Shown: positions 10,174-56,947 of the stretch, in pieces | How positions within the stretch are numbered: the first letter of the stretch is position 1 | Layout: each line of letters opens with the position of its first letter | Assembly (NCBI GenBank): GCA_003194525.1 | Contig: NBIV01000127.1 | Coordinates: 62,001 to 126,000 of the forward strand | Direction: 5' to 3' | From: Gracilariopsis chorda | Taxonomy: Eukaryota; Rhodophyta; Florideophyceae; Gracilariales; Gracilariaceae | Length of the DNA stretch: 64,000 nt | Notes under the pieces: generated by a model | What the model saw: only the letters and a program-made list of their open reading frames with translations | Told to the model about the DNA's origin: nothing | Databases searched by the model: none | Translations under genes and position numbers: made by a program

Positions 10174-10265
10174 AGCACAGACTGCGCCGCCGGCCGCCTC
10201 TTCATACTACGCCGCCGGCCGCCTCTTCATACTATGAAGAAGCGGCCGGCGGCGCAGTCTGTGCT
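10174..10265. repeat. GC-rich inverted repeat, 33-bp arms, with a third copy in the loop
   Basis: Left arm 10174-10206 and right arm 10233-10265 are reverse complements with one mismatch; each carries GCGCCGCCGGCCGC. The loop (10208-10232) holds another direct copy of the same GCCGCCGGCCGCCTCTTCATA core. A related string, GAAGCGGCCGGCAGTC, occurs at 31774-31790. This looks like the end of a mobile element or a tandem/inverted rearrangement. Confidence 0.75.
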
Positions 10266-10506
10266 ATGAAGTTCATACACTCTACAGAGGTTTAACGCCG
10301 TAGAAGTTGTCTTATCAGATTTCGTAGCCACGACTTACACGAACGCTGCGAGATTTTGCAGAACAAAACCTTGTATTTGCACCTTACGCAAAATAGCTTA
10401 TACAGTAGCATGGTGCGCAAACTCCTCTGCACTATGTCCGAGTCTCAAAAGCTGTAAAGCAACGCCCTTCTGAGTACTTAACGAATAATGCTCATCATAT
10501 GCTGTT

Positions 10507-11480
10507 GATCCCCCTTGGGTTAGTGCTGCTCACTATATGAGTTTTCCCTAGGAAGGGGTGTGTCAGGACGGCCCCTGAAAGGGGATGGCACCCCGATGGG
10601 TTGGCTAAGACTAGCTCTGAATGGGTGTAACGCGTGGTACGCGTGGGAATTTTTGGCTCCTATTTCGGAATTTTATTACTTAGTTCGTTTTTACTTTGGC
10701 CCTAACACTGAGATCTCCACATGTATGGCCCTTAGAAGGTGTGCACTAAGTTATTTATTTATTTTAGGTAATTTTAGTGAACCCTACTTAAGGGCGAGTG
10801 ACCTCGCGATTGCGAGTCCAAGGTAAACTCAACCAAGTGTGGCTCTAACTACAAATGCCCTCGTCGGGTTACAACTCCTTGCGGAGAGTATCCACGAGTG
10901 GATTCCATTTATTTATCCCCTTGGGAACGCTCAAATTATCTGTATCACACCTCCCGTGGAGCTTCTAACCATATTGGTATTATTGTTTTTGTATCCTTTC
11001 GAGAACAGATTTCCGACCCTGTATAGGGCTATTTCTTCTTTCTTTCCCCTGTTTTCTTCGGGTCTGTTGCCTGCGTGTGCACGACCCTCGTCCCCTTTTT
11101 CTGGTTATTGTTTCCGCTTTCTGACTCTTTACAGTGGACACACCGAATCCGGTACCGAACCCCAATCCCGGACCAAAACCTCTGTAGGTTATTTCTGAAT
11201 CCCCCTGGGAGTTGCGCCCCAACATTGGGTGGAACAGATGGCTCTGCTAGACTGTCTACCTCTCGTGAGGGCAAGGCTTCGAACACCTTGAGGTGCACTT
11301 CCCGCCACCGGGTTTTGCTCTACAAAACCATTGGTTTAAAGGGTTACCTATCCTACACCACAACTTAGCTTCTTTCCCAGTCTTAACCCCGTACCACGAA
11401 ATGCATAATGCTTCAACTAGTTTACTTCCTACGTAATTTTCGTAGCCGTGTCTTTTTACTACACGACTGATACCCACGTC
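10507..11480. repeat. Probable solo LTR or relic related to the gypsy element
   Basis: No credible gene; the open frames on both strands are unrelated to each other and to known proteins. The stretch shares the peculiar texture of the LTRs at 12940 and 23657: many tiny hairpins, e.g. CCCCTGAAAGGGG, ACGCGTGGTACGCGT, CTCGCGATTGCGAG, CCCGCCACCGGG and CCCAACATTGGG. I could not define TG...CA ends or a target duplication, so the solo-LTR reading is inference. Confidence 0.4.
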
Positions 11481-12613
11481 GTCACACAAATCTGATTCCT
11501 AACAAATGTCTCACAAAAGCATTAACTTCTTGGTACTCAAACAGACGGCATGTATTCTGGTGGTTCTTCTAGTACGAAAAGTTTCAGAACCGTAGCAGCC
11601 AAGTTGGCAATACCAGGAAACTTTCATTTTTTGTCCTCTCCTCACTTCAGTGAAGTTTCAATCACATAATTTTCAATTTCATTTCCAATAATCATGCACG
11701 CAATGCGTTGCTTAGTTTGAGACACCTTGGCTTCCCACCTCTCAGGTTGGTTACCAGCCTCTGGCTTTCTGTCGTTTCCGACTTCAGCCATCATATCACA
11801 GTTGCTGTGATCTGCAGTACCTATGACCACCCATCTCGCTTAATGATGGCTATAACAACGCGAGAAAAGCACAGAAGAAGGCATTCCATGGCCAGACAGG
11901 AGGCATCCATATGAGCAGTACGTCCAATTGTATCATTGTTTGCATAACTAACAACCACCAAGTCAGGCTTGGAATTGTCAATTTCGTCAAAACTACTATC
12001 GGATATTTGACTTACTTTCATCCATGGGCTAGTTTGTTATTGTTGCCTGTAAGACAGGATACAATACGGTTTTTGCATGTGTTTTTAAAACTTAGCGGCA
12101 CAGGTACCGTTATAGAAGTAGGTAAAGTAGCCGTACTTCTGTGTTTTCGACATCAAGAAGCACTTCATACTAAATTTTAAGACATAATCGTCAACATTTC
12201 TCACTCGATTTGTAGATGAGAGTCCAATAATCACTTCGGAATACCTGCATTACTGTCTTACTGCATCATACCGGCATAGCGAATTTCCAGGACGCGCTTT
12301 CGGTCCAGGCCATGTACTTCGCCCTCCACAGCCTCATAAACCGTTTAGATCTCAATTGCACGATCAACTCTGAAGTTGCAGAACAGCACAGAGTCGCCAT
12401 CACTGATAGGCTCGACAAGTTTAACATAGTCGTCCACAATTACAAACGGAGGCATGTTCTGATCCATCATATCTTTGTCCTTACAAAATGGTCAACAGCA
12501 TCAATACAGGACTTGAAAGTGGCAAGTGATGTATGACCGCGACAATGTGCTCTCTAGCCATTTTCGACCATGCCCCAGTCGGCTTCGTAGCGATCTCAAA
12601 ACCTCTTAATCTC

Positions 12614-12648
<35 letters not shown>

Positions 12649-12939
12649 TACAATAATGATTTTCACATGTATGATGGAAGGTTTTGTTGATTGACGGCAG
12701 GCATTGCGCCAAAAAAAATTGCTTGCACGCTCCCCTCAGCCCATGCAATTATCACGCCTCCCCGCCAATTAAAAAATTCAGCAGCAGCAAAGCTCGAGGT
12801 TTATTGGCTGCTTCGCTGCTGCTGCATGTTGACTTCCTGCGTGCTGCTCAGTGGTTAGCACTACTGTAATGACTGAAGTGCCATCAACTCATCAGTAACT
12901 GGTGCGCACGACAAATGGCTGCCATTTTTGCACTTTGCG
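11481..12939. other. Decayed sequence with a C32 tract
   Basis: Short minus-strand open pieces (11642-12021) contain a string like PDLVVVSYANND, reminiscent of SGNH-hydrolase block motifs, but too broken to call. A run of 32 C lies at 12616-12647, a likely slippage and assembly trouble spot. The right end is the outer flank of the gypsy element. Confidence 0.4.
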
Positions 12940-13764
12940 TGTGGTGCAATGCCCCAAAGGGGAAAAACACCGAAAGACGTTCGGGATCTTCCTCTCACGA
13001 GGTGAACCCAGTTGGGTAGAGCCCTCCCAGAGGTGTCACGGCGAAGCCGGTTTGTAAGACCAGGGACACCTGTCGCGACTCGCGCAGGGAGGTGAAGGCG
13101 AAGAATCGGTATCCGCGTGAGCGGGGTGTGATCCTCAGTAGAGGTATGTTTCCACGTAAGTGGGGGTGTGTGAGCGGATACGCACACGAGGGCCGCGGAT
13201 AGCGGGAAGTGCTACCCTAAAAAGGGGGAAAAGGAAGGGCGAAGAGGAGGAAGAGAGGACGATGTGAGTCGCGAGAGCGACGGGGACGAACGGCGATGCC
13301 GGTAACAATATCCCTATACAGGGCGAAACACCAATGCAATTGGAACAATTATACTCCCAGTGATGGGTCCCTTTAGATGTGCAAGGGGGTTAGATGTCCC
13401 GTGGTTTACGGCGTTTCCCTCCAAGGAGGAGTAGAGTACGCGCGCAAGCGGCAACAACTAGAGCCAATTCCCCAGGTTGGGGTCCCTTGTTGGGGAAGGT
13501 TTACTGGTGCGACGGCAGTGCGCCGTCGCACTAAGTACTAGCTTCCCAGAAATGGGTGTGAAAATAATAAATAATATTAACTAAAATACTCCACATTTCG
13601 TGGCAACATCCACTACTGTGGCCAACCGCCAAGTGACCCAAAACTGTGTCCCACGTGTCCATATCCACCATAGTGGGGCGTAGTTCATATACACACTACA
13701 CAACCGATAATATCGGGAAAGCGTTCAAGTACCCAGAATCCCTCCCTGAGGGCTTTGCACTTCA
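12940..13764 (-). repeat. 3' LTR (825 bp)
   Basis: Matches 23657..24464 along its full length. The boundaries are where the two copies stop matching: TGTGGTGC at 12940 and TTGCACTTCA at 13764. It contains more than twenty small perfect hairpins (see findings), including a 10-bp-stem hairpin at 13507-13531. Confidence 0.93.
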
Positions 13765-13766
13765 TA

Positions 13767-13777
13767 TCCTCCCCCTT
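13767..13777 (-). other. Polypurine tract
   Basis: On the minus strand AAGGGGGAGGA lies two bases from the TG start of the 3' LTR, where plus-strand priming of reverse transcription is expected. It fixes the element's orientation. Confidence 0.8.
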
Positions 13778-13821
13778 AAGACGGGAAAACGACCGCGGAC
13801 GCGGAGGATTCCCAGACGAAA

Positions 13822-15609
13822 ATGGGTGATAAAAGCGCGTGCTCTGTCCCCGGTTCTCCGGTAAATCCCTCTGCACCAGAGTCATCAAGCACACAAACGA
13901 CCACAACAGCCACCCTTGACAAGGGAGAAATGAACGACGACAACAACATCAACAACCACAGCCAACCTCCGAGACTTCTCGGGCGATACACCACCGCTTT
14001 CCGGTCAGTTCCCCTGCCTCAGGGCGATCGAAATCCGGTACAACCGGGAAATACGGCTGCTGAAGCCGACCATCCCTTCGCACTACCACCTTCGGTGGTG
14101 TCCTCCGGAACCACTCCGGTGTCCAACTGGCCAACCTACAACACCCTGGTGGGGCTCAACCCCATGAATCGGAATCACGCGTCGCGCCTGCGCCTTGCCC
14201 CATGGTTTCACCCGGTCGCTGTCCTCAATGAGGGATTGGTCACCGCTTATGCGGATGGTTCAGAAACCCTTCCGGGGGATCTGCCCAGAGCAGTCACCAC
14301 ATCGTGGGATTGGCGTCACCGGATTGCGATTCCGCGTCACCACCTCCGAAGAAACTCGGGCGAGACCGTCACTGCGGCACAGACCGCGCTGACGCGCATG
14401 GCGTATCAACGGCAGAGCCGGGCTCCATTCGATGTACCGGTCCCACCGGAGTCTGGCTTCGACGTTAGCTACTTCCGCACTCGCGGGGAGATTGGGTACG
14501 GCGAGAACCTGTTCCGCCTCGAGACCCTCGCTTGGAGGAATTTCCCCGCAGCGCGGCAAGAGGCCCTTTGCTGGGAGTGACCGATTATTCGGGCGGAGTT
14601 CAGGTACCTTCCCCGGCAATACCGGTCCAACTTTCTCCAAAACTTCATCCGCTACGAGCGGCGTAGGCGATCCCGATTCGGGTATTTTATCCCGTATCAG
14701 AACGTGGAGATAGAGCGGATTGCGCTGCCTCACTGAATAGGTCGGTATGTAGCACTCCTCGAGTGGTGGTGCTTCCACGAAGCCTGCCGGGGGTGCTACA
14801 TAGAACTCCCGCCGGTACTTACGTACCTCGGTTCGCTGCTCATGCAGGATCCCCGGTCAGGGTTGTGGTCCGTAGTGGTTACGGAGTGGGCGGCCCGCAG
14901 TGCGGCTTATATTCTCAACGAGGCGTACGACCAGTATTGTCTCTGGTTCCTTCAACCGCATGTGCGGGCAGCGATCCGAAACCTGGATCTTCGCATCCCC
15001 CTTGGGGGCCAGGCCAACAATGAAGAGGTCCTCCAATTACTTGGGTACATCGACAGCGTTAGCTGGAGTGAGGTCCCGCTGGAGCAAAGCGGTCGTCTGG
15101 ATGGCGGTAGCGGTAACACCGGTGGTCCGGGACTCGGTAGAAACACCGCCCTTGCGGGGGATTTTATCTACTTCGACCCCTGGGTGTTCCGGGAAATTTC
15201 CTCCGAAGAGGCGCGCGAGCTTCGCGATACGCCCCGGCATGTGCCGGAAGACCACCTGGTGGGGTACGTCGATTCCGACGACTACTACCGCGCATACGGC
15301 GGGGATGACCCAATGGTCGATAACGAACCGGAAGAACCCGGGGAGATGGACGTAGAGGAAACCGGCGCTAGCGCGGAAGCTTTCCCAGAGGGGGCATCTC
15401 CGGCCGAGCCGGCTGCTGACCCTTCGGCGGCAAGTGCCGGACCTTCTATCCCCAGCGGGGTGACGGCGAATGAAAACGAAATCATCGCACGTTTCCTCCG
15501 GGGTGCCGGTCTTAGCGCTGCCGAGGTATCGGGGGGTGTCACCACCATGGCGGACGCGTTGGCCTACCGCCTTGCTGAGGGTTACGCCCCGGACGATGGG
15601 GGTGAGTGA
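13822..15609 (+). pseudogene. Antisense ORF inside the retrotransposon (596 codons, two in-frame TGA)
   Basis: One frame runs from an ATG at 13822 to TGA at 15607-15609, broken only by TGA at 14578-14580 and at about 14734. Both could be CGA changed by CpG deamination. It is opposite to gag-pol and fills the space between pol and the PPT. The N-terminal ~70 residues are Ser/Thr/Asn-rich; the middle is rich in Trp, Tyr and Arg and looks globular (VEIERIALPH, ALLEWWCFHEACRGCYIELPPVLTYL); the C-terminal ~110 residues are acidic and Pro/Ala-rich (EPEEPGEMDVEETGASAEAF). I recognise no family. Its start is 58 bp from the LTR, and AATAAA follows the stop at about 15696, so an LTR-driven antisense mRNA is possible (inference). 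Confidence 0.6.
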
Positions 15610-15800
15610 AACCTCTGGTCCAGTTTCCTGGTTCTTCTTTCCCTGGCTGTGCCAGTTAGTGTAGTGTAGTATTGTGGGGAGCTAGCTGCTCCCCTTAATA
15701 AACTTTCCCGTTTAGAACAGTGCTTCTCGGTTGAGTTCCCCGTCTTCGACGGACTTTGCCTTGTTATCCTTTCCTTTCGCTCTCCGCTCGCGCGGCAACG
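15610..15800. terminator. Convergent 3' ends of pol and the antisense ORF
   Basis: 191 bp separate the stop codons. AATAAA at about 15696 (TTAATAAACTTT) would serve plus-strand transcripts of the antisense ORF as polyadenylation signal. Confidence 0.45.
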
Positions 15801-18800
15801 TTACCCAACTTGGGCATTAACCAGCGTGGCTGGGGCTGCGGTTCCCGTTTGACGGTGGTATCGCAGGACCTGCGACCGCGGGAGGTGTTCAATTGGCTCC
15901 CACGTATCCCCACTGGGGTCGTACCCGTACCAGCGGACGCGGTATTGTAGAATACCATCCTGGTCCCAGGTGTGTCCGACAAGTCGGTCTACTACGAACT
16001 CTCGTTTGTAGACCTGCCGGCCGTGCCGGTTGGTGGTTGTACTTCCCTGCGGGGGCTGCCCGCTGTGCGGTATAATGTCCCTTAGCAGGGTGTTCGGCGA
16101 TAACTCCGACGTTGCCGTGCGCTGCCCTAGTGGCCGCTGCTCATGCGGGAAAATATCCCTCAAGAGGGTGTGTGGTGTCACGGTTTTCCCCGGCAAGTCA
16201 TTCCCCATTGGGGTGTCGTTGTTCCCGTCTTCACGGTAGGCCGGGCGAACCGCCAGTCGGCGGGGGACTTGGGCTCCGCCTTCGCGGTTGAGCTCACGAA
16301 CCGCGAGTTTGCGGGAAGATGACCGCTCCTGCGGGATCGGCATTTCCACAATCCCCTTGGGGGTCCTGTGCGACACGGTGATTGGGTGGCAAACCGCCTC
16401 CCTGCCAGGCGCACGAGCGCTCTGCACCATACGTTCCGGCGACGCCGTGGTGTCCCCGGCTACTGACGGGTTGCCTGGGGCTAACTCCGGTACACCGGTA
16501 TTTTGGTCAAAATTCCCCTTTGGGGGGTTCTGGGCAGGTGCCGATGACACCCTTTTCAGGGGAATTGCCGCTAAGCGCAGTGCACCATCTCCGTGAGGAG
16601 GAGCAGCGTCCGGTACGACCGGTTTCGAGCGTGCGATGGCGCGCGTTATTCCCGAGTTCCTCGGTTCTTCGACGCAGCGATGCGGGGGTTGGCGCAAATT
16701 ATTCCCCGTAGCGGGGGCTTTGATTCCGTCAACGACGGGAGGCGTTTCCGGTGCTTGCGAGCCAGGGCTTAAATCTTCGACTGCAGCTTGGCCGCCTTTT
16801 TCCCCAAGAAGGCTGTGGGTATTCCCCTGTGAGGCCGGCGTATCTGGGCGCCCCTTCTCCGCAGGGCGCGGGTCTGATCGACCTGATTGAACCGCTTCCG
16901 CGGGGACTTCCGCCAACGGCGGCTTCGAGGCATCGGGCGATTGCCTTTCCGCTGCTGCGGTATTGGAGTGAGGCTTCTCGTTTTCCCGTGACAAACGGTG
17001 TATTTGCCGCTTTTGCGGGGCCTGCGCGTCTGGGTCCTGTTGCAAAGCACTGCCCAGGAACGGGGGATTAGTGTCGCGTGACATACTCCGTGCTCCACGG
17101 TCAGTGTTCCGTATGTTACGGTGTGTCTCCCGTTGCGACGGTGATATCGTTCCTCGAAAACGAGTGTTCTCCTCCCCCTCCTTAGACGGAGCGGCGGGAT
17201 AAGGGATAACATTCCCCGGCTGGCGGGTATAGATGCGCGCCAGTGGGGCAGACGTGGTAGGGGCGGGCGCTGAGGGGCCCGAATTACCCGGCTGAGCCAG
17301 TGAGTCCGACAGAGTCGGTAGGTCTGAGAGTCCCCGGCTGGGGTGTGGTAGTACGGTAGGTCTAGTACTCCCGGATTGTTCCGGTGTAGCGGAGTCCGTA
17401 GAAACGGGGTTGCCTGGATCCAGGACTACCTCTGACGAGGGAGGAGGGGCAAGGACAACACGATCACGGGAAATCCGTTCGTGCGTGTCCCCCATCTCTA
17501 CCACGACAGTGTCGGTGTTAACAGAGATCACCTTGAAGGGTCCATCCGCCACAGGCGAGAGTTTGTGACGCTTCTCCCGTTCCGGGTTGTAGTATTCCTT
17601 CCTGATGAAGACGTAGTTATTTGCCCGAATCGGGGACGGTTTTCCTCGCACGCGAGCGTCAAAATCCCGCTTGTAAGCGGCTTGGGCCCGTGCCATAGAC
17701 TTCCGCGCAGCGGGGACCAGCTTGGAAAGCCATTGCTTCCATTGCTGCCGGTAGATACCCACAGATGGGAAATTGTCCAAGGTAGCTTGGGGTTCCAGCG
17801 CCACAAGCGGGGGTGTTCTAGATAGAACTAACTCGAATGGCGAAACTCCGGTAGTCCGGTGTACCTGCGTATTGTACGCGTAGGTTACCGCATCAGCGTA
17901 GAGATCCCAATTCGTTGGGTGGTCAGCGACGTAGGAACGTAACGCCGCGAGTAACGTCCGGTTAAACCGTTCAACTTGCCCATTACAATGGGGGTGGTAG
18001 GTAGTCGTGAACAAGTTCTTGACATCCAGGATGCGACAAACATCCTGGAAGAACTTGCTCACGAACTGCTTCCCGTTGTCAGAGAGCACCTCTACAGGGG
18101 GACCGTAGACAAAAATCCAGTGTGTCACCAGAGCCTGGGCCACCGTGAGAGCGGTTATCCTCCGAAGAGGGACAGTCCGTACCAGCTTAGAAAAGCGGTC
18201 GGTAATGACAAGTAGAAACTTGTTTCCACATTTCGTGGTGAGTAATGGTCCGAGAATATCGATCGCGATAAACTCGAGCGGCGCCCTTGCGGGGAATAGT
18301 TTCACCTTCTTCGCATTTTTGCGGAGTTTGACGCGATTCTTCGCGCATTCGCTACAAAACCGCACAGTTGCGTAGCAATCCACCGCCATTGCGGGCCAAT
18401 AGAAATCCCTTCGCAGGGTTAGGTAGAGTTTCCTCCCACCTGGGTGACCTCCAATGGGGGCGTAGTGTGATAGATGTAACACCCGCGATTGCAGGGAATG
18501 TGGTACCACAATCTGTGGGCGGGCTTCGACCTTTCTTACGAGGTAGCCTTTGTCGTTTACCCCGAAAGGGAGATCTTCACCACCGTTGATACGGGCACGA
18601 ATTCTCTTACAGAATGGGTCGCCGAATTGTTCTCGGATCATTTCTTCCGGTGATACCGGTACAAAGTTTCCCGGTAACAGGTTCTCAGATTTATATCGCG
18701 ATGCAAGTAGTTCGTCAAAATCAGCATCCTCGTCCCAGGTTTCTGGCCTAGCCTCTACGGCATGTTCGGGATCATCCGGGTCTATAGCCATGAAGCATGG

Positions 18801-19202
18801 GACTTCATCATCCTCCGTTGGGAGTGCTTCCCCACTTGTGGGTAACCGCGATAAAGCGTCGGCCTGGGTGTTCTGCGCACCCTTTTTATAAATGACTTGA
18901 AAGTCATATTCCGCGAGGCGGAGTCTCCAGCGCATGAGGCGTCCCGACGGGTCGGAGATATTCATCAACCACCTCAATGAGGAATGATCCCTGTACACGG
19001 TGAAGTGAATTCCCATAAGGTAGGGGCGCAGAGTGGTCATCGCCCATACGACGGCGAGGCACTCTTTCTCCGATACGGAGTAGTTCCGCTCATGAACATT
19101 GAGCGAACGTGACCAATAACCAATTGGATGTCGTTCCCCCTCGGGGGTGGTTTGAAAAAGAGCAGACCCGACTTGGTAGTCGCTCGAGTCCGTATCTACG
19201 GA
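15801..19202 (-). CDS. pol: pol, second part: RNase H, integrase, Pro-rich linker, chromodomain
   Basis: Continues in the same frame as 19203-21362 after a TAA at 19205-19203. RNase H starts with VDTDSSDYQVGSAL and includes the DHSSLRWL block. Integrase has the HHCC zinc region (HYAPIGGHPGGRKLY ... FCSECAKNR), core acids in FIAIDILGPL, VLSDNGKQFV and CNGQVERFNRTL (D, D, E) and a GPY/F-like region. A ~450-residue Pro/Ser/Arg-rich, probably disordered linker follows. The C-terminus is a chromodomain (FVVDRLVGHTWDQDG ... YRVRWYGYDPSGDTWEP), which in chromoviruses directs insertion to particular histone marks. The linker is unusually long and has a duplicated motif (TLLRDIFPH / TLLRDIIPH). Confidence 0.93.
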   Translation of the reverse strand, partial: SVDTDSSDYQVGSALFQTTPEGERHPIGYWSRSLNVHERNYSVSEKECLAVVWAMTTLRPYLMGIHFTVYRDHSSLRWLMNISDPSGRLMRWRLRLAEYDFQVIYKKGAQNTQADALSRLPTSGEALPTEDDEVPCFMAIDPDDPEHAVEARPETWDEDADFDELLASRYKSENLLPGNFVPVSPEEMIREQFGDPFCKRIRARINGGEDLPFGVNDKGYLVRKVEARPQIVVPHSLQSRVLHLSHYAPIGGHPGGRKLYLTLRRDFYWPAMAVDCYATVRFCSECAKNRVKLRKNAKKVKLFPARAPLEFIAIDILGPLLTTKCGNKFLLVITDRFSKLVRTVPLRRITALTVAQALVTHWIFVYGPPVEVLSDNGKQFVSKFFQDVCRILDVKNLFTTTYHPHCNGQVERFNRTLLAALRSYVADHPTNWDLYADAVTYAYNTQVHRTTGVSPFELVLSRTPPLVALEPQATLDNFPSVGIYRQQWKQWLSKLVPAARKSMARAQAAYKRDFDARVRGKPSPIRANNYVFIRKEYYNPEREKRHKLSPVADGPFKVISVNTDTVVVEMGDTHERISRDRVVLAPPPSSEVVLDPGNPVSTDSATPEQSGSTRPTVLPHPSRGLSDLPTLSDSLAQPGNSGPSAPAPTTSAPLARIYTRQPGNVIPYPAAPSKEGEENTRFRGTISPSQRETHRNIRNTDRGARSMSRDTNPPFLGSALQQDPDAQAPQKRQIHRLSRENEKPHSNTAAAERQSPDASKPPLAEVPAEAVQSGRSDPRPAEKGRPDTPASQGNTHSLLGEKGGQAAVEDLSPGSQAPETPPVVDGIKAPATGNNLRQPPHRCVEEPRNSGITRAIARSKPVVPDAAPPHGDGALRLAAIPLKRVSSAPAQNPPKGNFDQNTGVPELAPGNPSVAGDTTASPERMVQSARAPGREAVCHPITVSHRTPKGIVEMPIPQERSSSRKLAVRELNREGGAQVPRRLAVRPAYREDGNNDTPMGNDLPGKTVTPHTLLRDIFPHEQRPLGQRTATSELSPNTLLRDIIPHSGQPPQGSTTTNRHGRQVYKREFVVDRLVGHTWDQDGILQYRVRWYGYDPSGDTWEPIEHLPRSQVLRYHRQTGTAAPATLVNAQVG

Positions 19203-21390
19203 TTATGGCAACCCAAGTTTTGGGAGATGTAGGATTGGTGCTGATGTGATAGCCTCCTTTAAGGAGTTAAAAGCTTCCGATTGCTCGGGCGTAAATGTTC
19301 CCAGTTTTGGGGGGTTCCCCTTTCGCAACAACGCGTTCAGGGGCGCTGCAGTATCCGAAAAGTTCGGGATAAACCGTCGATAGACGTTGACCAGCCCTAG
19401 AAAGGAGCGCAGTTCCGTTTGAGTACGGGGTTCTTTCGCCTCAACGAGGGATTTGACTCGAGCTTTCTCGATCGCTAACCGTCCAGGACGGATAATGTGA
19501 CCCAGATACTTCACAGTATCTGTGAAAAACTCGCATTTCCTCAACTTGAGCGTAATTCCCGCATCGCGGAGTACGGTCAGCACGTCTCGGACGTGAGTGA
19601 GATGGTCGTCCAAAGAGTTGGAGAAGATGATAATATCATCAAGGTAGACCAGACAACTCCGCCACTTAAAGCGGTTGAGTAGAATGTCTACTGCACGCTG
19701 AAAGGTGGCGGGAGCGTTGGTTAACCCAAATGGCATCCGCTTGAAGCGGTACGTTCCTGCATGGCAGGTGAATGCGGTTTTGTCGCGATCCTCCTGTCTG
19801 ACAGGTACTTGCCAATATCCCCAATTGGCATCAAGGGCCGTGAACACGGTGGCGTCTCCAAGGGAGTCAATGCACTCGTCCATACGAGGGATGAGGTACG
19901 TGTCCCTAACAGTCACGGCATTGAGCCGGCGGTAGTCGACACAGAACCTCCAGGTTCCGTCAGCCTTTAAAGCCAGTACAACTGGGGATGCCCAGGGTGA
20001 TTGAACGGGCTCAATCACACCTGTGCGGAGCTTCTTGTCCACCTGGGACTGCTCCTCTTCCCGAGCTTTCGGACCTGCCCTGTAAGGGGGTTGTGCAACC
20101 GGTCGCGCTCCGGGGATTAAATCGATCCGGTGTTCCGTTGCATCAATCTCGCCAAGCGAGCCATCCCACATTGTGGTGAATTCACGTAACATAGTACGGA
20201 GTTTGTCGCGGTGCGACTCTGGCACGTGGCTGAAGTCCAGCGCTTCAAGTGCTTTTTCCGGATCAATCCGGTCATTGCTCGATGGAGCATTGTCCGGTGG
20301 AACAGGTGTGGTTCGCAATTCCGAGTTACTCGGTATGTTCGGCGCTGAAGTAGCGGTTTCCTCACCCTCCTTAGACTTGACGTCTTCGGAAGGCGGGGCG
20401 AACTCCTCATAAGAGGTGGTAACTCCGAGTACATCGGCGGCTGTCATCTTTGTTGGCAGCATTCCCATAGGATAGGGGGTTACACTCCCAATTACTTGGT
20501 GTTTGACCAGATACTGGGGGTGTTTGCCAAGGTTGGCAACCAATATCCGGAAAGGGACATCCGGGGAAATGGAGACAATTCCATTAGCCAGCGCCAGCTG
20601 GGATTTCTCGTACAACGAGGCGAGGGGTTGTATAACCCGAAGACCGTGTTGACGGGAATTTACCTGCACCCAGACTTGGGAGTCAGCCGGTATAGAAACC
20701 GAGGCAGCGACGCGGAGCTTGGTGGACTCGCGGGACGCGGGCGGTGGTTCCTGCGCAGCAGGGAGCGGAACTTGTTTCCGAGAGGACCGCTTTAGCGGGC
20801 GGCGAACAATCGGAACCGACGATCCGTCGTCAAGTTCTACACGCCTGAGGCGGGGCCTGATTGCGTCGACAAATCTGTCGCAGTAATCACATCCCAGTAT
20901 GACTGGTGCTGCCAATGAACGGCAAACGATGAAGTCCAACTTCACCACAGAGGTACCAAGTCTCACGACGAGGTCCACTGTGCCCACCGTTTGTAACGGA
21001 TTGTTGTTCGCATCCGAAATGTCGGGGACCGCATCAGAGCGGATACGCGACCGCACAAGCGGGGGTAACAATGATTCCACAACAAAGTTGGGGCCTGCAC
21101 CTGTATCCAGGACGGTGAGAAACCTCACCATAAACTGGGGGTCAAGGCCAAGGTCGGCATAGACCTTATAAATGCGCTTGGCCAAGACCAAGACTCTACC
21201 GGGAATCCGGGGATTTTTACTCCGTATCCACGGGCGACGCAACACACCGAGGTGCGCAGAGTCCGCGTCAGCGGTGTCTTTCCTCGAGAGGACTTTCACC
21301 GGGGAGAGAGGCAAGGACGCCTTGGGCGCCAACAGCCTCGTTCTTGAGGACGCCTCTCCCAAAGGGGAGACTCCCTCAGTTAGTTTTCCG
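19203..21390 (-). CDS. pol: pol, first part: aspartic protease and reverse transcriptase (ends at premature TAA)
   Basis: Frame -1 relative to gag. Aspartic protease with the active-site DTGAG (LTVLDTGAGPNFV) and the ILGCDYCDRF flap/second block. Reverse transcriptase carries the expected blocks: FCVDYRRLN, FTALDANWGYWQV, FKRMPFGLTNAPATFQ, the catalytic LVYLDDIIIFS (Y-x-D-D), and KYLGH. It then stops at TAA (19205-19203) exactly where RNase H should begin; the next codons resume homologous sequence, so the stop is a substitution in a continuous polyprotein. There is no obvious own start; expression by -1 frameshift from gag is likely. Confidence 0.9.
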
Positions 21391-23551
21391 CCTTCGGCGG
21401 TGGGTTGGTTTCCTCGACAACGAGTGCTTCATCCCGTTGACGGGGGTTTCTATCCGCATAAGCGGGGGTTGCAACGGATGGTTGCGTGATCTCCCGAATC
21501 GGGGTGTATGAAGCTTGCCGCGCACGCGGGGTCTGTGGTAGGGCGTGGGAAAAGTCCGTTTTAGCACGGAGGTAGGAAGCCGTCGGGACGGAACGTTTCT
21601 CCTCTGGAGTGAGGGCCTCATAATTTGCCACCACCTTGGCCATATCCTTCAGTGAACAAATACACTGAGGAGAGGTATGGCCATGGGCATAGCACAGGTG
21701 GCAAATGAGAGCCAGCACCGCGACACGCGGATTATTATTCCAAGTATCGGAGAAGCGAACCGCAGGGCGGGTTTCAGTCCATCCAGGCCGTTGATAACGG
21801 GATTGACTGTTTGAAAACGGGAGTCGTTGGGGTTGAACCCGACTGTTACCACCGTATAGAACGGGATCTTCTGTTCCCGTATCATGGGTCATCTTCGTCG
21901 TTGACGGTAACTCACTGGTGGGTATCGACACACCATCCCCCTGCGCTAAATGCACGGTATCAAATCCCTGTCCAGGGTTCCCATCTGCGGTGAGCGGGAG
22001 AGAGGAAGCTTCGCTTTCCAGCAACAACGCCTTGGCGGATTTAGACCGATTGTTCGGAGTTCTTGCACGAAGTGCATCCCCTTCCGCTCGAGCGTGTTGG
22101 ACCAGCTCGAGGTAGGTGATCCTCCGCCTGTCCTCCCGATAACGGGTAACTAAACTCCGGATTGCCGGGTCAAGACCATCAATGAACATGGTACTGCGCT
22201 CCCCAGCGGGGTATACGTTACCACATCTGTGGAAAGCCTTGTTAAGGCGCACCGAGTAATCGGTCTCGGTCTCTCCAGCACGCTGGCGTGTATCTCGCAA
22301 AGCGAGGATAGCCTGCTGAATAGCGGTGTTGGTGGCGTAGGAGCGCAGAAGATACTGCACAGCCTCCGGCCAGCAAGTAACTCCTCCCTCGGAGGCGCGA
22401 GAAGATCCTCTGACAGAGGTGTATTGGTCCTCTGCCACTCCCCGTAAGAAATACGGTAAAGCCAAATAGGCTTGTCCCTCATTCATACCGAGGATATCGG
22501 CCTCTGCTACAAAGCGGGATAGGAAATCCAGTACTAGGACTGGGTCCTCTCCAGTAAAATACTGGTTGCGGAGCGAGAGCTGCATTCGCTTAATGCATTC
22601 TCGCACCTTTCCCGTACCACGGGGCGTACGTCCTAGTGACGAATCTTCAAGCCGGTAGTACCGGTATGATAAAAGCTTCCGGTAATCCGGGTTTGTCGGT
22701 TTCAATTCCCGGAGACCGGGGTGTCTTCTCCCCTTCTGGCGGGTTCGGACCACACCTTCAGTGGCCGATGACCGCTTCGAGCGGGAGGAGTAGCCTCGCT
22801 TCTCGTCCTCCGAGTCGGAGTCCGAGGAGCTAGAGCTAACCGAATGGTTTCGGGATGAGTCCGACGATGTCGAAGAATCGGAGTCCGAATATTTTCGGTG
22901 GTGTTTCCGTCGGTGACGGCGTTTCTTCTTCCCAGCAAGCTGGTCGTTGTGCGATGCCTCGTTTACCGGATCATCCGGGGATGGTTTGTCCATGAGGACG
23001 AACTGCTCCAGCGTCTCCAGGCGGGCACCAATCCGATCAAATCGGGCTTCAACTCCTTCGATGAAGGTGGCGGGTTGTCCCAAACTCTCCAACACGGAGT
23101 TGACGTCAGACCGTAAAATACGGAGTTCCTCGGCGACCTCCTTTACGGGGGTTGCCGAGACCACCTCTTGGAGGGATTTTAGTTCCCCTACAAGGGTGTC
23201 ATGGGCGGTCCACAGAGCGCGGACCTGGGATTCCAGGGAAGTCCCCTGGGGTGTTATCGCCCGTTCCACGGGGGCTTGAAGCCGCGACAGCGGGAGCAGG
23301 CCGGGGTGCCTGGGGCACTGCGGCAACAGCCGGAGTCGATGCTGCATTCCGCTGCGGGGGTGATAACGAGGCCAAAAGGAGGTTCCGGGGTTCCCGGTCG
23401 GGGGTATCATTCCGCGATGAAGCGGCGCCAGCACGCTGGAACTTGTCCGTATAGGGATACGGGGTACGAACCGAACTTCGGAAGTGTCCGCGTTGTCGCG
23501 GAAGCGACTACGCGTAACCACTGGCTCCGCGTCGGAGGGATTTCTCGACAT
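21380..23551 (-). CDS. gag: gag polyprotein
   Basis: Starts at an ATG (23551-23549) 102 bases inside the PBS. 723 residues: a Pro/Arg-rich N-terminus, a coiled-coil-like middle, a Lys/Arg then Ser/Asp-rich segment (SDSDSSTSSDSSRNHSVSSS), then the capsid-like retrotransposon gag region (GEDPVLVLDFLSRFVAEADIL ... TETDYSVRLNKAFHRCGNVYP), and a nucleocapsid zinc knuckle CHLCYAHGHTSPQC (C-x2-C-x4-H-x4-C). It packages the element RNA in virus-like particles. The frame is intact. The stop at 21382-21380 overlaps the candidate slip site for pol. Confidence 0.9.
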   Translation of the reverse strand: MSRNPSDAEPVVTRSRFRDNADTSEVRFVPRIPIRTSSSVLAPLHRGMIPPTGNPGTSFWPRYHPRSGMQHRLRLLPQCPRHPGLLPLSRLQAPVERAITPQGTSLESQVRALWTAHDTLVGELKSLQEVVSATPVKEVAEELRILRSDVNSVLESLGQPATFIEGVEARFDRIGARLETLEQFVLMDKPSPDDPVNEASHNDQLAGKKKRRHRRKHHRKYSDSDSSTSSDSSRNHSVSSSSSDSDSEDEKRGYSSRSKRSSATEGVVRTRQKGRRHPGLRELKPTNPDYRKLLSYRYYRLEDSSLGRTPRGTGKVRECIKRMQLSLRNQYFTGEDPVLVLDFLSRFVAEADILGMNEGQAYLALPYFLRGVAEDQYTSVRGSSRASEGGVTCWPEAVQYLLRSYATNTAIQQAILALRDTRQRAGETETDYSVRLNKAFHRCGNVYPAGERSTMFIDGLDPAIRSLVTRYREDRRRITYLELVQHARAEGDALRARTPNNRSKSAKALLLESEASSLPLTADGNPGQGFDTVHLAQGDGVSIPTSELPSTTKMTHDTGTEDPVLYGGNSRVQPQRLPFSNSQSRYQRPGWTETRPAVRFSDTWNNNPRVAVLALICHLCYAHGHTSPQCICSLKDMAKVVANYEALTPEEKRSVPTASYLRAKTDFSHALPQTPRARQASYTPIREITQPSVATPAYADRNPRQRDEALVVEETNPPPKAEN
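21383..21389 (-). promoter_or_regulatory. Candidate -1 frameshift site between gag and pol
   Basis: On the minus strand the last gag codons are GCG GAA AAC TAA. Slipping back one base on G GAA AAC gives GGA AAA CTA, entering the pol frame, which is open from there onward. GGAAAAC is close to a canonical X-XXY-YYZ heptamer. The 13-bp palindrome CCGCCTTCGGCGG (21388-21400) lies on the wrong (upstream) side to be the usual downstream stimulator. Confidence 0.5.
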
Positions 23552-23635
23552 GAGAAAATACCGTTACGACGGGAAACGATCACAGAACTTCCGGTGAATG
23601 AAAACAAACCTCGTAAGAGGGAAAACAAAAACCGA

Positions 23636-23653
23636 TTCTAGGTCGGGAGACCA
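23636..23653 (-). other. Primer binding site
   Basis: On the minus strand TGGTCTCCCGACCTAGAA starts three bases inside the 5' LTR end. Its complement ends in CCA and reads like a tRNA 3' end (acceptor strand plus part of the T arm). I cannot name the tRNA. Confidence 0.7.
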
Positions 23654-23656
23654 CTT

Positions 23657-24464
23657 TGTGGTGCAATGCCCCAAAGGGGAAAAACCCCGAAAGACGTCCG
23701 GGATCTTCCTCTCACGAGGTGAACCCAGTTGGGTAGAGCCCTCCCAGAGGTGTCACGGCGAAGCCGGTTTGTAAGACCAGGGACACCTGTCGTGACTCGC
23801 GCAGGGAGGTGAAGGCGAAGAATCGGTATCCGCGTGAGCGGGGTGTGATCCTCAGTAGAGGTATGTTTCCACGTAAGTGGGGGTGTGTGAGCGGATACGC
23901 ACACGAGGGCCGCGGATAGCGGGAGGTGCTACCCTAAAAAGGGGAAAGAGGAAGGGCGAAGTGGGTCGCGAGAGCGACGAGTAGATACGGCAATGCCGGT
24001 GGACAGGACTCCCTATACAGGGCGAAACACCAATATGATTGGAACAATTAGTACTCCCATTGATGGGTCTCCTTTAGATGTGCAAGGGGGGTGAACTTCC
24101 GTACACTACGGTGCTTCCCTCCAAGGAGGAGTTGAGAACACGCGGAGGCGGTAAAGCTCAAAGCCAATTCCCCAGGTTGGGGTCCCTTGTTGGGGAAGGT
24201 TTACTGGTGCGACGGCAGTGCGCCGTCGCACTAAGTACTAGCTTCCCAGAAATGGGTGTGAAAATAATAAATAAAATTAACTAAAATACTCCACATTTCG
24301 TGGCAACATCCACTACTGTGGCCAACCGCCAATTGACCCAAAACCGTGTCCCACGTGTCCATTGCCACCATTGTGGGGCGTAGTTCATATACACACTACA
24401 CAACCGATAATATCGGGAAAGCGTTCAAGTACCCAGAATCCCTCCCTGAGGGCGTTGCACTTCA
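23657..24464 (-). repeat. 5' LTR (808 bp)
   Basis: Direct copy of 12940..13764, with TGTGG at its inner edge and TTGCACTTCA at its outer edge. The main differences from the 3' LTR cluster in two short stretches (about 23945-24010 and 24090-24165). Confidence 0.92.
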
Positions 24465-26961
24465 GAATGTGAGCCTGAAGAGCCGGGGGTGCTATTTCAG
24501 AGTTGATAAGGCTGGGCGCAGCCCCTGTATTTAGGACAGATAACTGGCGAACCATATATTGGTTGGACAGGCCAAGATCGACATACAATTTGTAGTTTCT
24601 GTTGGCCATCACCAGAGCTCTTTCCGGAATACGGAAATTACGAGAACTTTTCCACGGATGACGTAGAACCGAAATGATCTCCGAGCTCACGTTGGTTGCA
24701 GCCAATTTCCTAGTAAGGATCTTGACAACGGGGAGCGAAGCTGTACTGCTTTAGTCGTCAACTTCGGATCAGAAGACGCCCTTCCCATACAGGACACTCT
24801 GGAATCTAGTTTTTCGAGGAGGGATTCACCGAACTCGGGGTCACCATCCCATGGTGAGAACCAGACTAAATCCCATTCGTGGGTACGGTCGCGTTCTCCG
24901 CTTGATCAGGGATTGGTTCAACCACAGGAATTTCCGTTCGTGCCAGTGCGGCGTTAGTGAGTAATGCTTTTACGTCTTCATATAAAGTACTCTGCACTCG
25001 GGTCCGATAAGCTGGGGTCAGCGTTTCGTAGTTCACGCTAACTTTGGGCACCTCCCGGAATGTCAACTCATGTTTCGGTTCGATATGACCATGATGGTAA
25101 TATCTATGACAGAAACCCAGTGCCGCTTTATCATATTGACGATGGTTATCCGTTTGACGTTGCAGTTTCGGTACGATCCATTTAGGGCGGGTAAGAGGAG
25201 ATCCGTTTGACGCGTGAAAGAGTGGAGTGGCCTGCATCCGTGCTGCACTGGCGTAGAAAACGGGTTCCTTATCGGAAATCGGGGCCGATGTGGACGGCAA
25301 GTCCGTAGTCCCAAACGATTCAGGGTGACTTCCAGCGTACTGGACGTTGTCCATATCCGCGTTCGTGCTTCTGCCCTGGGTCAAAGAAATCGATTGTGAT
25401 GATTCCTTCAATAAGAGAGCTCTCGCTGACTGGCGTTTCGGTTGAATCCGTGCACGGTGAGTTTCTCCCTCAACCTGGGCACACTCGACCACTTCAAGGT
25501 ATGAAATGTTCCGTTTATCCTCAATTTGTCACACGACGAGGGCTAGTAATGCGGGATCCAATCCATCCACGAACATCGTACACCGCTCCTGCGCGGATTG
25601 AAAATTACCACAAGGGTAAAACGCTTTTTTCAAGTGGGTTGAATAGACCGTTTCAGTTACACCAGGCTTCTGTTTCGTATTGCGATTATCGCCGTGTGGA
25701 TGGCATTTCCCGTAGCGTATGACCTGAGAAGGTAATGAACTGCTTCTGGCCAGCAAGTTACTCCTCTTTCCGAGGCTTGCGGTGTTTCTCCAACAGAATT
25801 GAACTGATCTTCAGCTGTACCCATTAGGAAATACCGTAACGAGGGATACGCTTGGGCTTCACTCATGCAGAGTATGTCAGCCTCCTGAAAGAACCTAGCG
25901 AGGAAGTAAAGCACCAGAATTGGATCTTCTCCTGAGAAACAACTCGATTGAAGAGTAATATTCATGAGTTCGATGCAATCCTTAACCTTGCCGGTACCTC
26001 TTGCAGATCGAGTAGATGAGGAATCATCCAATCGATAATAACGATACGAAAACTATTTCCGGTAAAGCGAATTCGTAGGATTTAAATCCTTGAGTCCCAG
26101 GTGACGTCTACCTTTCTCGCAAGAGTGAATGACTCCCTGAGTAGTATAAGTTGCCATCGACTTCGTTGCACTGTAATTTCTGCGTTCGTTATCAGAATCC
26201 AATGAGTCCAATGAGGAATCCACTGAGCGGTGATCAGAGTCAGAATCTGACAAACCCGAATCAAGGTAGTGAACATCTTTTTTGGGTTTACAAGCCTGAC
26301 GTTTCTTCGAGCAGCGAATTGAATCTATAGAGACGACCTCGTTTTCCGCTTCTCCGGACGCTTCTGTATCCATATAGATGGTCGCTTCCAAGGTATCCTA
26401 ACGAACGTGCACACGTTCCAAGGCCACCTGAATTTCGTTGACAAACTTTTTGTAGTACTTTAGGAAAGTACGTGGGGCACCCAGACATTCCGAAATGGAG
26501 TTTACGTCTAGACGTAAGAGTCGGGTATCTCCCGAGACATCCCAAACTGGGGCAATTTCAACTTTTTGACGAAATTCGTTTACCTCATCGAGGAGAGACA
26601 CATGAGCCACCTTAGAGATGTGAATCATCACCTCCAGTCGAGCAAACCCCGCTGAGTCCATACGAGGGTAAGCCACAGACGGCGTTTTGACCACTGGGGG
26701 TGGCACCGCCTGGGTTATATCCTGTGGAGCAGTCGCAATCGAGGGCGTTCTTCGGGAATTCCGACCAACTTCATTGTTGTCCAAACGTTCCGGAATGGAT
26801 GTCCGTGTGCGCGGGGCACCCTGCGGGGGTATATCAATTGCATCAGTAGAACTAGCTCGAGAATTGAGGGCCGGTGGCGGCATACTGCATAGCAGTGAAC
26901 CAAGTGTTCGGAACTTCAATGAACCGTAATCAGAGGTTTTCGAAGAACTAAGGCAACACAA
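24465..26961 (-). pseudogene. Relic of an older related gypsy element (gag and protease)
   Basis: Fragments in several frames match the intact gag and protease of the element beside it in the same order. Examples: GEDPILVLYFLARFFQEADIL and GVTCWPEAVHYLLRSYATGN (25657-26031), RRHLGLKDLNPTN (26053-26130), NYETLTPAYRTRVQSTLY (about 25000). The zinc knuckle is decayed (CHRYYHHGHIEPKH, two ligands changed) and the protease reads LNTGAA (catalytic Asp to Asn, about 24560). It has many stops and frameshifts. The younger element inserted into its protease; the RT-integrase part does not reappear left of 12940, so the rest was deleted or the insertion was followed by rearrangement. Confidence 0.85.
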
Positions 26962-28833
26962 GGATCTTGATAGATTCTACCAAAGAACTGGAACAGCACA
27001 GAAATGCAAAAAGTGATCAAACTAAATATAGATGAACCAATTATACGTCGGGAAATCACTTGTTTGGAAATAACTTATGGTGAAGCCATGCTCTCTGGTG
27101 AGGTAGGCACAGCAACAAGGCCCTCTGCATCATACCATGTTCGACTGTGAAACCGAGAGGGCTTCCAGCTATACCGACATAGATGATACCGAGAATCGGG
27201 CTACCAGCTGTTCAACGTAGTGCACAGGTCCGTGTGAGCGGGATTCCGGTCCAAGAGGACTCCAGAAAGGGGAAAGGGGAAAAAGGGGAGAAACCAGAAG
27301 GAAAGGTACAACCCCGCGGGTCGTGTGGAAAGCCAAAATAGGCCCAGTGGTGGGGGGTGTGTCTGGTTCAGCCAGCACGGCAAAACTCAATGCTGAGTCG
27401 AACGGCTATCTGTTCCGCAATAGAAAGTAACCAAAACAGTAAAATCAGTGAACACTGGGCGAACCCATGGGGTACGGCAGATCATTGGTCCTTGGTGATA
27501 CTGTGCAGATGAGTATAATGAGACCGAACGCGGTGAAACCCCAGCGGGAGTTGGTCACTTCGGACAGGTGATAAAACCAAAGGCAATTCACAGCTTGTCT
27601 TAACTTCAGGGTGAAATGCCAAGGCTGTCTTACCTTAAGTACTGTTGGGTCACATTAAACTAAGAATACTACTGCTGTAGTATGCCACACTGTGGTCCAC
27701 ATTCTTGTGTCACCTAGCGACACTGCTGGCCACAGCGTAATACGAGACGTATGAATCATGCCAGCCATGAATAATATCCTTACGCTTGCCACGCGTCCAT
27801 CTGTTCCAAATACCGCGGAAATCACCCACGAGGGCCCCAAAAATACCAATTAAAATTCATCTCGAATTTCACCCAATATTTCCGAGGGTCCTCTCACACC
27901 TGAGTTGAACCGATGCCACGTCAGTATTGAATAATTTATGATCCATCTCGCCTAAAGGTATGCGTGCACGCATTGCTCTACATAAAAAACTTCTTAAACA
28001 GGTCCACATCCTGTTCTGGTATGTTTTTTCCTCTTTCCATTGTATGAAGTCGATACTTTTTTGATCATTGATCCAAAAAATAGAGGCAAAAGCCACCCCA
28101 ACTGAAGTTGCCAGGTTCAACACAGCTGTTTATATCAAATCGCTATTTATTTTCCAATCAGGTCTTGAAATATGTACCAAAGAAATCGGTGATGTTTCTT
28201 TGGCTTCTACGATCAATGTTTTAGATATACTGCCCTTCAAAAACGCGAAAATAATTATCGAACTCTCAGTGCCATTGCTGATGTGCAGTTGCGTATTAAT
28301 TTCACGATTCGTCCAGAAAGACTTAAAGATGTCATATATTTCATTTTCTAGGAGTATGTCGCCGGAATCAGACGCTTATTTTGATTTGGTTTTACTTCTC
28401 AAAGCAATATGAACGGCAGAGATAGCGGTCAGGAAACCAGATTGTAAAGTGAAGATAGTCACCAACGTTTAACCAAATCTTCGAATATGCGAAGTAGGAA
28501 ATACTTCCTGATGTATTTGCCATTCCTACACATGGTAACGACGCCGGACGGTAACCTCCTCTCTTTGTACATTACATTTACGTTGTGCTGACTTGGCGGC
28601 CAGAGAGAGAAAGAATAGAGGGAACCTCCTGACTCTGCGGATCTACTGGTCGAAATCCAAAATAGGGGCATATAATTGGCTACAGTACGATCTCAACTGG
28701 CGTGGACCCATGTGCCGCCCACCGTGGCAAGTTCCCGCTAACTCTCTCTTTTTATTGGTGCAAATGCGCGCTGAATCGGCCTACACTATCTACGTCGTGT
28801 AGCTTAGCCCTTTCCCGTTTTAGAGGCACAATA
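26962..28833. other. No gene recognised
   Basis: Presumably contains the rest of the relic's 5' end. A plus-strand open frame at 28068-28412 has protein-like composition (LPFKNAKIIIELSVPLLMCS) but no ATG at its start and no family I know. Confidence 0.4.
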
Positions 28834-30184: not shown

Positions 30185-30193
30185 TTTCTCTTT

Positions 30194-56944: not shown

Positions 56945-56947
56945 TTA

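Follow-up and report, generated by a model that had tools for sequence, protein, structure and literature searches.

Dispersed CC-capped mini-hairpins throughout a Gypsy retrotransposon of Gracilariopsis chorda: a possible family-specific recognition lattice

The window, i.e., the whole stretch analysed here, comprises 64,000 nucleotides of the red alga Gracilariopsis chorda (contig NBIV01000127.1, positions 62,001 to 126,000). It carries a chromodomain-type Gypsy element studded with short hairpins (Table 1). The traits of Ty3/Gypsy chromoviruses were found in this element: the order gag-PR-RT-RH-IN, two LTRs, and a C-terminal chromodomain. Besides the reverse transcriptase, domain matches were obtained for RNase H, integrase and Chromo (4e-10). 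Gag was assigned via its relatives, some of which contain PF03732. The sequence-only reading had correctly drawn the lattice through gag and pol, but its layout has to be corrected, as gag-pol is coded on the minus strand. The two LTRs belong to different subfamilies and share 91.3% identity, and a target-site duplication was looked for at the 12939/24465 flanks without a match. Because of the unmatched flanks and the mixed LTRs, this copy looks recombinant. The plus-strand ORFs matched no Pfam family. Five relatives were found for the second one, two of them named Gracilariaceae proteins. Structure prediction of the antisense ORF, considered as a reader protein, gave no fold (mean pLDDT 37.6). 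A single scan of a 366-aa RT piece against viral_contigs returned no relative.

Table 1 Coordinates of the element, its parts, neighbouring relics and example hairpins in the window
Feature	Positions	Strand	Remarks
Whole element with hairpin lattice	12940..24464	-	229 non-overlapping CCNN..NNGG hairpins, total length 11-14
5' LTR (gag-pol sense), subfamily A	23657..24464	-	20 hairpins, 24.8 per kb
3' LTR (gag-pol sense), subfamily B	12940..13764	-	20 hairpins, 24.2 per kb
gag ORF	21380..23563	-	48 hairpins without overlap (22.0 per kb); CCHC-type motif recognised by eye and shared by relatives
Protease-reverse transcriptase ORF	19203..21428	-	RVT_1 3.1e-36; 17.5 hairpins per kb (12.6 in the RT core)
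RNase H-integrase-chromodomain ORF	15801..19202	-	19.1 hairpins per kb
Two antisense ORFs (266 and 290 aa) carrying the lattice	13780..15609	+	
Degenerate gag-like relic outside the element	24866..26976	-	Lattice mostly lost, 8 sites vs 1.7 by chance
Relic stretch, perhaps LTR-derived	10401..11700		Remnant lattice, 8 vs 1.3
Example hairpin CCCCAAAGGGG	12952..12962		
Example hairpin CCCTATACAGGG	13312..13323		4 bp, 4-nt loop
Example hairpin CCACCTTCGGTGG	14086..14098		5 bp, 3-nt loop
Example hairpin CCGCCTTCGGCGG	21388..21400		5 bp, 3-nt loop

The hairpin excess proved real and stronger than first claimed. Over the whole element, 433 perfect stems of at least 4 bp with loops of 3-5 nt were counted, compared to 137.4 in dinucleotide and 134.2 in trinucleotide shuffles. 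For CC-capped stems of the same dimensions, the count was 234 versus 20.5 and 20.8, respectively. The left LTR contains 34 stems (8.2 by shuffle), 21 of them CC-capped where 0.9 are expected, so that the earlier count of over 20 in one LTR against about one by chance was exact. All eight hairpins quoted by the sequence-only reading were found at their positions, and its stem-10 hairpin is legible in the printed sequence at 13507-13531. The suggested spacing of one hairpin every 25-40 bases was too dense, the average being one per 50 bp. The excess was counted in each part, i.e., LTRs, gag, pol and antisense ORFs, as had been proposed. Within the RNase H-integrase-chromodomain ORF, the density is 11.6 per kb in the integrase zinc and core regions and 21.6 per kb in the C-terminal part with the linker. 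The lattice starts and ends with the LTRs, with 249 sites in the 11.5-kb element and 42 in the remaining 52.5 kb.

In coding sequence, the excess persisted under synonymous-codon shuffles in all seven element ORFs tested. CC-capped hairpins numbered 50 versus 5.7 in gag, 40 versus 5.8 in the protease-reverse transcriptase ORF, 73 versus 12.5 in the RNase H-integrase-chromodomain ORF, and 17 versus 3.4 and 16 versus 4.2 in the plus-strand ORFs. Six non-element ORFs of the window, picked and named by eye, together held one hairpin (5.6 expected). The lattice also reveals that synonymous and non-coding sites are strongly constrained in a way invisible to ordinary annotation.

The hairpins obey a tight design rule. 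CC faces GG at the foot of the stem, 4-5 Watson-Crick pairs enclose a loop no shorter than 3 nt, and further pairing outside the CC is avoided. At a total length of 12, CC..GG occurs 101 times (5.7 by chance) and the reversed cap GG..CC six times (5.5 by chance). GG..CC stays near chance at lengths 11-13, and its sole excess lies at length 9 (16 vs 5.0). Loop lengths of about 1-8 nt are enriched, with a maximum at 3-4 nt. In the window's element, the next pair outside the CC matches 5/90 times at length 12, 1/65 times at length 13 and 2/24 times at length 14, where chance would give about 1/4. A fifth pair, by contrast, is frequent where 3 nt or more are left for the loop (53/65 at length 13 and 14/24 at length 14) and close to chance at shorter lengths (25/90 at length 12 and 13/48 at length 11). 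Since the fifth pair is favoured solely under this condition, the hairpins are taken to fold for real. Loop preferences are modest, with A at the third place in 52 of 115 4-nt loops, and no strong shared loop motif, a trait of dispersed packaging signals, was detected. The proposal of a structural rather than a sequence repeat held insofar as the repeat is structural and not copied sequence, but the fixed cap is also part of it. Centre-to-centre distances near 21 nt are in excess (36 pairs vs 18.5 under hard-core random placement). A strict long-range 21-nt lattice found no support, as permuting the observed gaps accounts for the surplus seen at 42 nt (p 0.92) and 63 nt (p 0.11). The short-range preference stands.

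Two further Gypsy families of the same genome, here F2 and F3, also carry the lattice, which makes three of the three families examined. Extension beyond the CC is avoided in F2 as well. F3 shows no such avoidance (4/20 at lengths 12-14, near chance). Part of its additional outer pairing may come from the T-A of F3's own cap, TCCN..NGGA, which occurs in 22 stems of the F3 ORF versus 2.3 in synonymous shuffles. A few TCC stems occur in F2 too (5 vs 1.85); the cap difference is therefore a matter of degree. The fifth pair of F2 resembles that of the window's element at length 13 (11/20) but not at length 14 (2/8), and the F3 numbers (3/7 and 2/5) are too small. F2 gives no clear sign of the 21-nt spacing. 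The flank preferences of the hairpins also set the window's element apart from F2 and F3. Outside these families, hairpins in pieces of two Copia elements from this genome were not in excess (23 vs 22.3 in one, 25 vs 24.2 in the other), and two transposase-like ORFs contained no site each. A mutational process acting host-wide was rejected on the basis of these Copia pieces and transposase-like ORFs together with the six non-element ORFs.

Conservation between copies had been named as decisive, and the stems did remain constant while the loops vary between the LTR subfamilies. In the diverged LTR block, 0/40 stem sites differ, compared to 8/22 loop sites and 45/138 other sites (p 1.3e-6 against the latter two pooled). 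Among 30 cleaned copies, with stems defined as present in at least 15 of them, variants shared by at least two copies occur at 4/624 stem sites and 49/2861 other sites (p 0.047). Singletons are not fewer in stems (46/624 vs 155/2861). Taken together, stems seem to be constrained in those copies that replicate, and within-family purifying selection is weakly significant after cleaning. The uncleaned alignments gave 35/829 versus 294/3809 (p 2e-4) but included non-homologous stretches, and the cleaned figures are preferred. Compensatory stem change, the other expectation, is borne out thinly between families and not within the family. Well-aligned copies contain 65 one-sided and no two-sided stem-pair changes, although these copies are young, which limits the comparison. 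In the unfiltered alignment, 24 two-sided cells (10 Watson-Crick, 14 not) all lie at local identities of 0.3-0.7. Of 28 same-centre matches between families, 19 agree fully in their stems, with one hairpin entering twice; a one-pair compensation in clean register turned up a single time (CCGCTTCAAGCGG / CCGATTCAATCGG).

More than 200 hairpins of strict design, with constant stems and changing loops, point to a further layer of information, so far unrecognised, that is read as folded shapes. The preferred reading, to which a probability of roughly 40% is assigned, sees them as dispersed recognition hairpins, on genomic RNA or cDNA, for a nucleic-acid-binding protein that the element itself encodes, Gag being the likeliest candidate. 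The element sequence would overlay its protein code with family-specific hairpins. Each would offer a CC/GG base, 4-5 Watson-Crick pairs and an unconstrained loop no shorter than 3 nt; the family of the window's element would also leave the junction outside the CC unpaired. Gag would bind them through its CCHC-type motif on a folded single strand, either genomic RNA or minus-strand cDNA, and would thus pick out and compact the genome of its own element. The strict CC..GG cap, the reversed cap near chance, and the avoided extension argue for recognition rather than stability. The F3 cap and the differing flank preferences suggest a co-evolving reader, and the Copia pieces at chance level indicate that the lattice is lineage specific. 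The CCHC-type motif was seen by eye in 15 of 16 aligned Gag sequences, namely the window's Gag and 15 of its 62 matches; the Pfam search of the window's Gag did not call a zinc knuckle. The counts and alignments establish the hairpins, their rule, their occurrence in three Gypsy families but not in the Copia pieces, their constancy between LTR subfamilies and the family-specific cap; a protein reader, its identity as Gag and a role in packaging or condensation are inferred. Among the causes suggested by the sequence-only reading, the best fit is a putative binding lattice, whether for Gag or for some other protein of the element. Two features count against a packaging signal on RNA: the scarcity of G.U would be unusual, and coat-protein packaging signals are usually read at their loops, while the lattice loops lack a strong motif.

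A broader formulation, which is tentative and rather doubtful, sees two codes in one retrotransposon. One specifies proteins; the other would be a Watson-Crick hairpin code peculiar to each family, with the CC cap in two of them and TCC stems in addition in the third, which the element's own protein would read on a folded single strand. This code might act at the cDNA stage and not on RNA alone. If true, it could let each family distinguish its own genome from those of its neighbours. How LTR retrotransposons choose their own RNA over host transcripts and other families is poorly understood, and a countable family-specific code makes this choice directly testable. Moreover, the signature can be used to look for similar lattices in other genomes.

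Integron attC sites are known to be read as folded single-stranded DNA, largely independently of stem sequence, and the proposed reading resembles them in this respect. However, an attC site is far longer and occurs once per cassette, whereas the lattice consists of hundreds of mini-hairpins with no known recombinase role. Rickettsia palindromic elements and organellar hairpin repeats are mobile palindromes, inserted as copies of related sequence. Like them, the lattice palindromes lie within genes and spacers, but each hairpin within an ORF has its own sequence. Published systems were compared through excerpts of the open PMC literature, subscription papers being outside the scope, and these excerpts contain no description of such a lattice. 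In RNA viruses, dispersed packaging signals are described as many degenerate stem-loops across the genome, with a particle protein as the proposed reader (PMC6281560, in excerpt). The lattice likewise repeats stem-loops beyond chance over the whole element. In contrast to the viral signals as excerpted, its fixed part is the stem base, its loops are nearly free, its density is about 20 per kb, its pairing is Watson-Crick only, its cap is family specific, its host is an LTR retrotransposon, and its binding is putative.

A rather unlikely alternative is that the hairpins act in single-stranded cDNA, where they would organise or protect the minus strand or be of use to an enzyme, be it reverse transcriptase, RNase H or integrase. 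Pairing in the element is indeed of the Watson-Crick type (264 vs 20.1), and the enrichment of A-T pairs comes close to that of G-C. G.U pairs, at about the level of other mismatches, reach 35 versus 19.4 on the sense and 48 versus 21.2 on the antisense strand. The folding excess is also without strand preference (sense vs antisense p 0.54, 0.40 and 0.59), and identifying a sense-strand RNA by G.U or folding energy was consequently dropped. Pure DNA pairing does not predict, however, that the C..A class on the sense strand (antisense U.G) is 3.4-fold enriched (37 vs 11.0).

Reverse-transcriptase template switching, reported to create and repair hairpins (PMC8794818, in excerpt), could perfect quasi-palindromes in each cycle and leave the lattice as a mutational by-product kept clean by correction. 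The lattice inverted repeats, like those described in the excerpt, are short and perfect with little G.U; their sequences are diverse, and their positions have partly turned over between families. This origin is nevertheless improbable and, as a proposed cause, fits poorly. Stems stop at a fixed CC with extension avoided in two families, shared stems are mostly identical and the same across LTR subfamilies, and the cap differs by family. Furthermore, the copies display neither two-arm changes nor inverted loops (0/36 loop variants), both limited tests in copies so young.

The third proposed cause, a generally folded genomic RNA that evades small-RNA silencing or decay, fares no better and has a low probability. 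As in viral genome-scale ordered RNA structure, described as excess folding over the entire genome (PMC7642675 and PMC3950689, in excerpt), the folding energy lies below shuffled controls: the mean z is -1.21 in the window's element, -0.68 and -0.54 in the other two families, and -0.01 and -0.21 in two flanks. Short stems would also be expected if long dsRNA is avoided. Stability alone would, however, favour GG..CC and GC caps about equally, which was not observed, and would admit G.U, which is hardly enriched. The near equality of A-T and G-C and the like folding of both strands are further points against it. In contrast to the excerpted viral cases, the lattice obeys one rigid mini-hairpin rule of limited stem length, with little G.U and without strand preference, and G.U tolerance on the genomic strand, a trait of ordered RNA structure, was not found.

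That the hairpins act as insertion targets, guiding fresh insertions into existing copies, is very improbable. Palindrome targeting and nesting have been reported for LTR elements (PMC6911290, in excerpt), but targets need no perfect folding hairpins, and the target copy would gain only indirectly. Chance, base composition or codon bias is refuted, as it finds no support after dinucleotide, trinucleotide and synonymous-codon shuffles and is contradicted by the reversed caps, mirror repeats (0.8-1.3 of chance), non-element ORFs and Copia pieces.

Traces of the lattice also occur around the element. The gag likeness of the relic at 24866..26976 was judged by eye from ORF translations and from a 173-bp DNA match of 69% (25712-25884). 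The relic at 10401..11700 has the LTR hairpin CCCTGTATAGGG in common with the element, and at least partly because of this relic, the flank at 1-12939 holds 16 CC-capped hairpins versus 8.2 (matched by 0/40 shuffles). CC-capped counts are 6 versus 9.6 at 44001-64000 and 16 versus 11.4 at 24465-44000. The latter flank also has a slight overall hairpin excess (282 vs 221.6).

The window's Gypsy element W, of the chromodomain type, carries a dense lattice of short perfect hairpins. Stems of at least 4 bp with loops of 3-5 bases numbered 433, compared to 137.4 and 134.2 in dinucleotide and trinucleotide shuffles (40 each), and stems starting with CC and ending with GG (CC-capped) numbered 234 versus 20.5 and 20.8. 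This bears out the excess over shuffled controls proposed in the sequence-only reading. In a 500-base map, bins wholly inside W held 5 to 15 sites and bins outside 0 to 4. Per kb, there were 24.2 and 24.8 non-overlapping hairpins in the two LTRs, 17.5-22.0 in the coding zones and 21.6 in the C-terminal part of the integrase. The catalytic cores were sparser (RT core, 12.6 per kb; IN zinc and core, 11.6 per kb), as expected from a pressure acting against protein constraint.

Codon usage was controlled by permuting synonymous codons in ORFs. The five ORFs of W contained 50, 40, 73, 17 and 16 hairpins, versus 5.7, 5.8, 12.5, 3.4 and 4.2 after permutation. Two other Gypsy families of the same genome, F2 (35 vs 3.9) and F3 (28 vs 4.6), behaved alike. 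The excess thus persisted under the codon shuffle and was absent from six non-element ORFs (1 hairpin altogether vs 5.6 expected). No lattice was found in 1.7 kb of each of two Copia elements (L071, 23 vs 22.3; L072, 25 vs 24.2), and in the window's relics most of it is gone.

The hairpins follow a narrow design. With CC..GG fixed, a match of both inner pairs occurred 52, 101 and 72 times for total lengths (arms plus loop) of 11, 12 and 13, where chance gives about 6. The GG..CC control gave 9, 6 and 10, with an exception at length 9 (16 vs 5.0), and mirror repeats were near chance. Enrichment was maximal at loops of 3 and 4 and was lost by about 9. In the internal part and right LTR of W, a fifth pair was present in 53/65 hairpins of length 13 and 14/24 of length 14, where a loop of at least 3 is left, but was not favoured at lengths 12 (25/90) and 11 (13/48). 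This dependence of the fifth pair on such a loop shows that folding of the strands is real. Outside CC, the next pair was so seldom matched (5/90, 1/65 and 2/24 at lengths 12, 13 and 14) that longer stems are evidently avoided; at length 11 it was at chance (12/48). F2 showed the same avoidance at lengths 12-14 (2/17, 0/20, 1/8); F3 did not (2/8, 2/7, 0/5). Centres about 21 nt apart were preferred in W (36 vs 18.5).

Pooled over the three families, the third pair was enriched 9.8-15.5 fold for all four Watson-Crick pairs, and the fourth 16.4 (C-G), 14.6 (T-A), 12.8 (A-T) and 7.2 fold (G-C). Cap-intact hairpins numbered 264 vs 20.1 when fully Watson-Crick, and with a single defect 35 vs 19.4 for sense G.U, 48 vs 21.2 for antisense G.U (mostly C..A, 37 vs 11.0) and 126 vs 81.9 for the eight other mismatches. 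The folding excess over shuffles was alike on both strands (p 0.54, 0.40, 0.59). Therefore, the lattice concerns Watson-Crick identity, not graded stability. Sense-strand C..A (antisense U.G) was the most enriched non-Watson-Crick class across the three families (13765-24464, L003 and L006). This excess is confined to one arm of near-hairpins.

Stems are also preserved. Between the LTRs of W, 0/164 stem sites, 9/81 loop sites and 57/560 other sites differ; in the diverged LTR block, the figures are 0/40, 8/22 and 45/138 (stems vs rest, p 1.3e-6). Stem conservation therefore holds between the LTRs. Compensatory change, looked for among sister copies, did not appear: well-aligned stretches showed 65 one-sided and 0 two-sided stem-pair changes. 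Polymorphism was scored in 30 of the 40 listed copies, with badly aligned stretches masked. Variants common to at least two copies fell on 4/624 stem, 7/344 loop and 49/2861 other sites (stems vs elsewhere, p 0.047), while singletons showed no stem avoidance (46/624 vs 155/2861; p 0.07, opposite direction); the shared-to-single ratio differed (p 0.011). Because shared variants are scarce in stems and singletons are not, the constraint seems to act on multiplying lineages, not on resident copies.

From the genome (91.3 Mb, 1081 contigs), the analysis covered three families of Gypsy (W, F2, F3) and the two Copia stretches. F2 consists of L003 with five almost identical copies, and F3 of L006, L007, L069 and L070; they share 63-67% PR-RT DNA identity with W or one another. 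Across PR-RT, W has 39 CC hairpins, F2 35 and F3 17. Same-centre matches numbered 14 for W-F2 (one hairpin counted twice), 9 for W-F3 and 5 for F2-F3, versus 1.5, 0.7 and 0.6 by shifted chance. Positions are thus in part inherited and in part replaced, while the lattice itself persists. The CC-hairpin deficit of F3 is partly made good by TCCN..NGGA stems (22 vs 2.3 in synonymous shuffles of its ORF; F2, 5 vs 1.85), which raise its density to 13.2 per kb. W hairpins are often followed by A after GG (48% of 216), and pooled F2/F3 hairpins by C in the first place (35% of 77) and T in the second (42%).

The cap is fixed, the stem limited in length and the loop almost unconstrained; details vary by family, and the constraint seems to act at transmission. 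Together, these traits suggest that the folded hairpin may be recognised by a factor co-evolving with its element family. Gag would be the first candidate, as it must select its own genome and a CCHC-type motif is kept in relatives (15/16 aligned Gag sequences, by eye; no Pfam call). The 21-nt spacing is one that a single bound unit on each hairpin, together with a linker, could produce. The folded strand could be RNA or cDNA, and the scarcity of G.U leans towards DNA or a wobble-rejecting reader.

Coordinates of W and of other features in the window
Feature	Position	Strand	Remarks
Element W	12940-24464		LTRs at both ends, 91.3% identical to each other
Gag, PR-RT and RH-IN-chromodomain ORFs of W		minus	
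Two unrelated ORFs of W	near 13780-15609	plus	Between pol and 3' LTR
Perfect 10-bp LTR hairpin without CC base	13507-13531		Counterpart in right LTR
Flank of W	24465-44000		Short perfect hairpins slightly in excess overall (282 vs 221.6), no clear CC-cap excess
Transposase-like ORFs (named by eye)	28958-30184, 48734-49753		No hairpin lattice
Reading frames of a subtilisin-like protease (identified by eye)	42577-46819	minus	Followed by long tandem repeat

The W copy seems to have arisen by recombination between elements, as it has no target-site duplication at its ends (12925-12951 vs 24452-24480) and its LTRs come from different subfamilies: the right LTR is 98-99% identical to 39 other scored copies, the left 91% to the right. 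The 10-bp hairpin has the same sequence in both LTR subfamilies and no CC base, and hence may have a role of its own, e.g. in 3' end formation. Protein matches were named from Agarophyton chilense, Gracilariopsis chorda and Gracilaria domingensis, which makes a red alga of the Gracilariaceae the probable host. The second antisense ORF belongs to no known family, but five relatives were found, among them G. chorda BWQ96_05177 and G. domingensis FGB62_50g12; the antisense ORF's fold was not predictable. At the subtilisin-like protease locus, the tandem repeat has units of 18 protein letters, open in several frames, and GC skew is strong.
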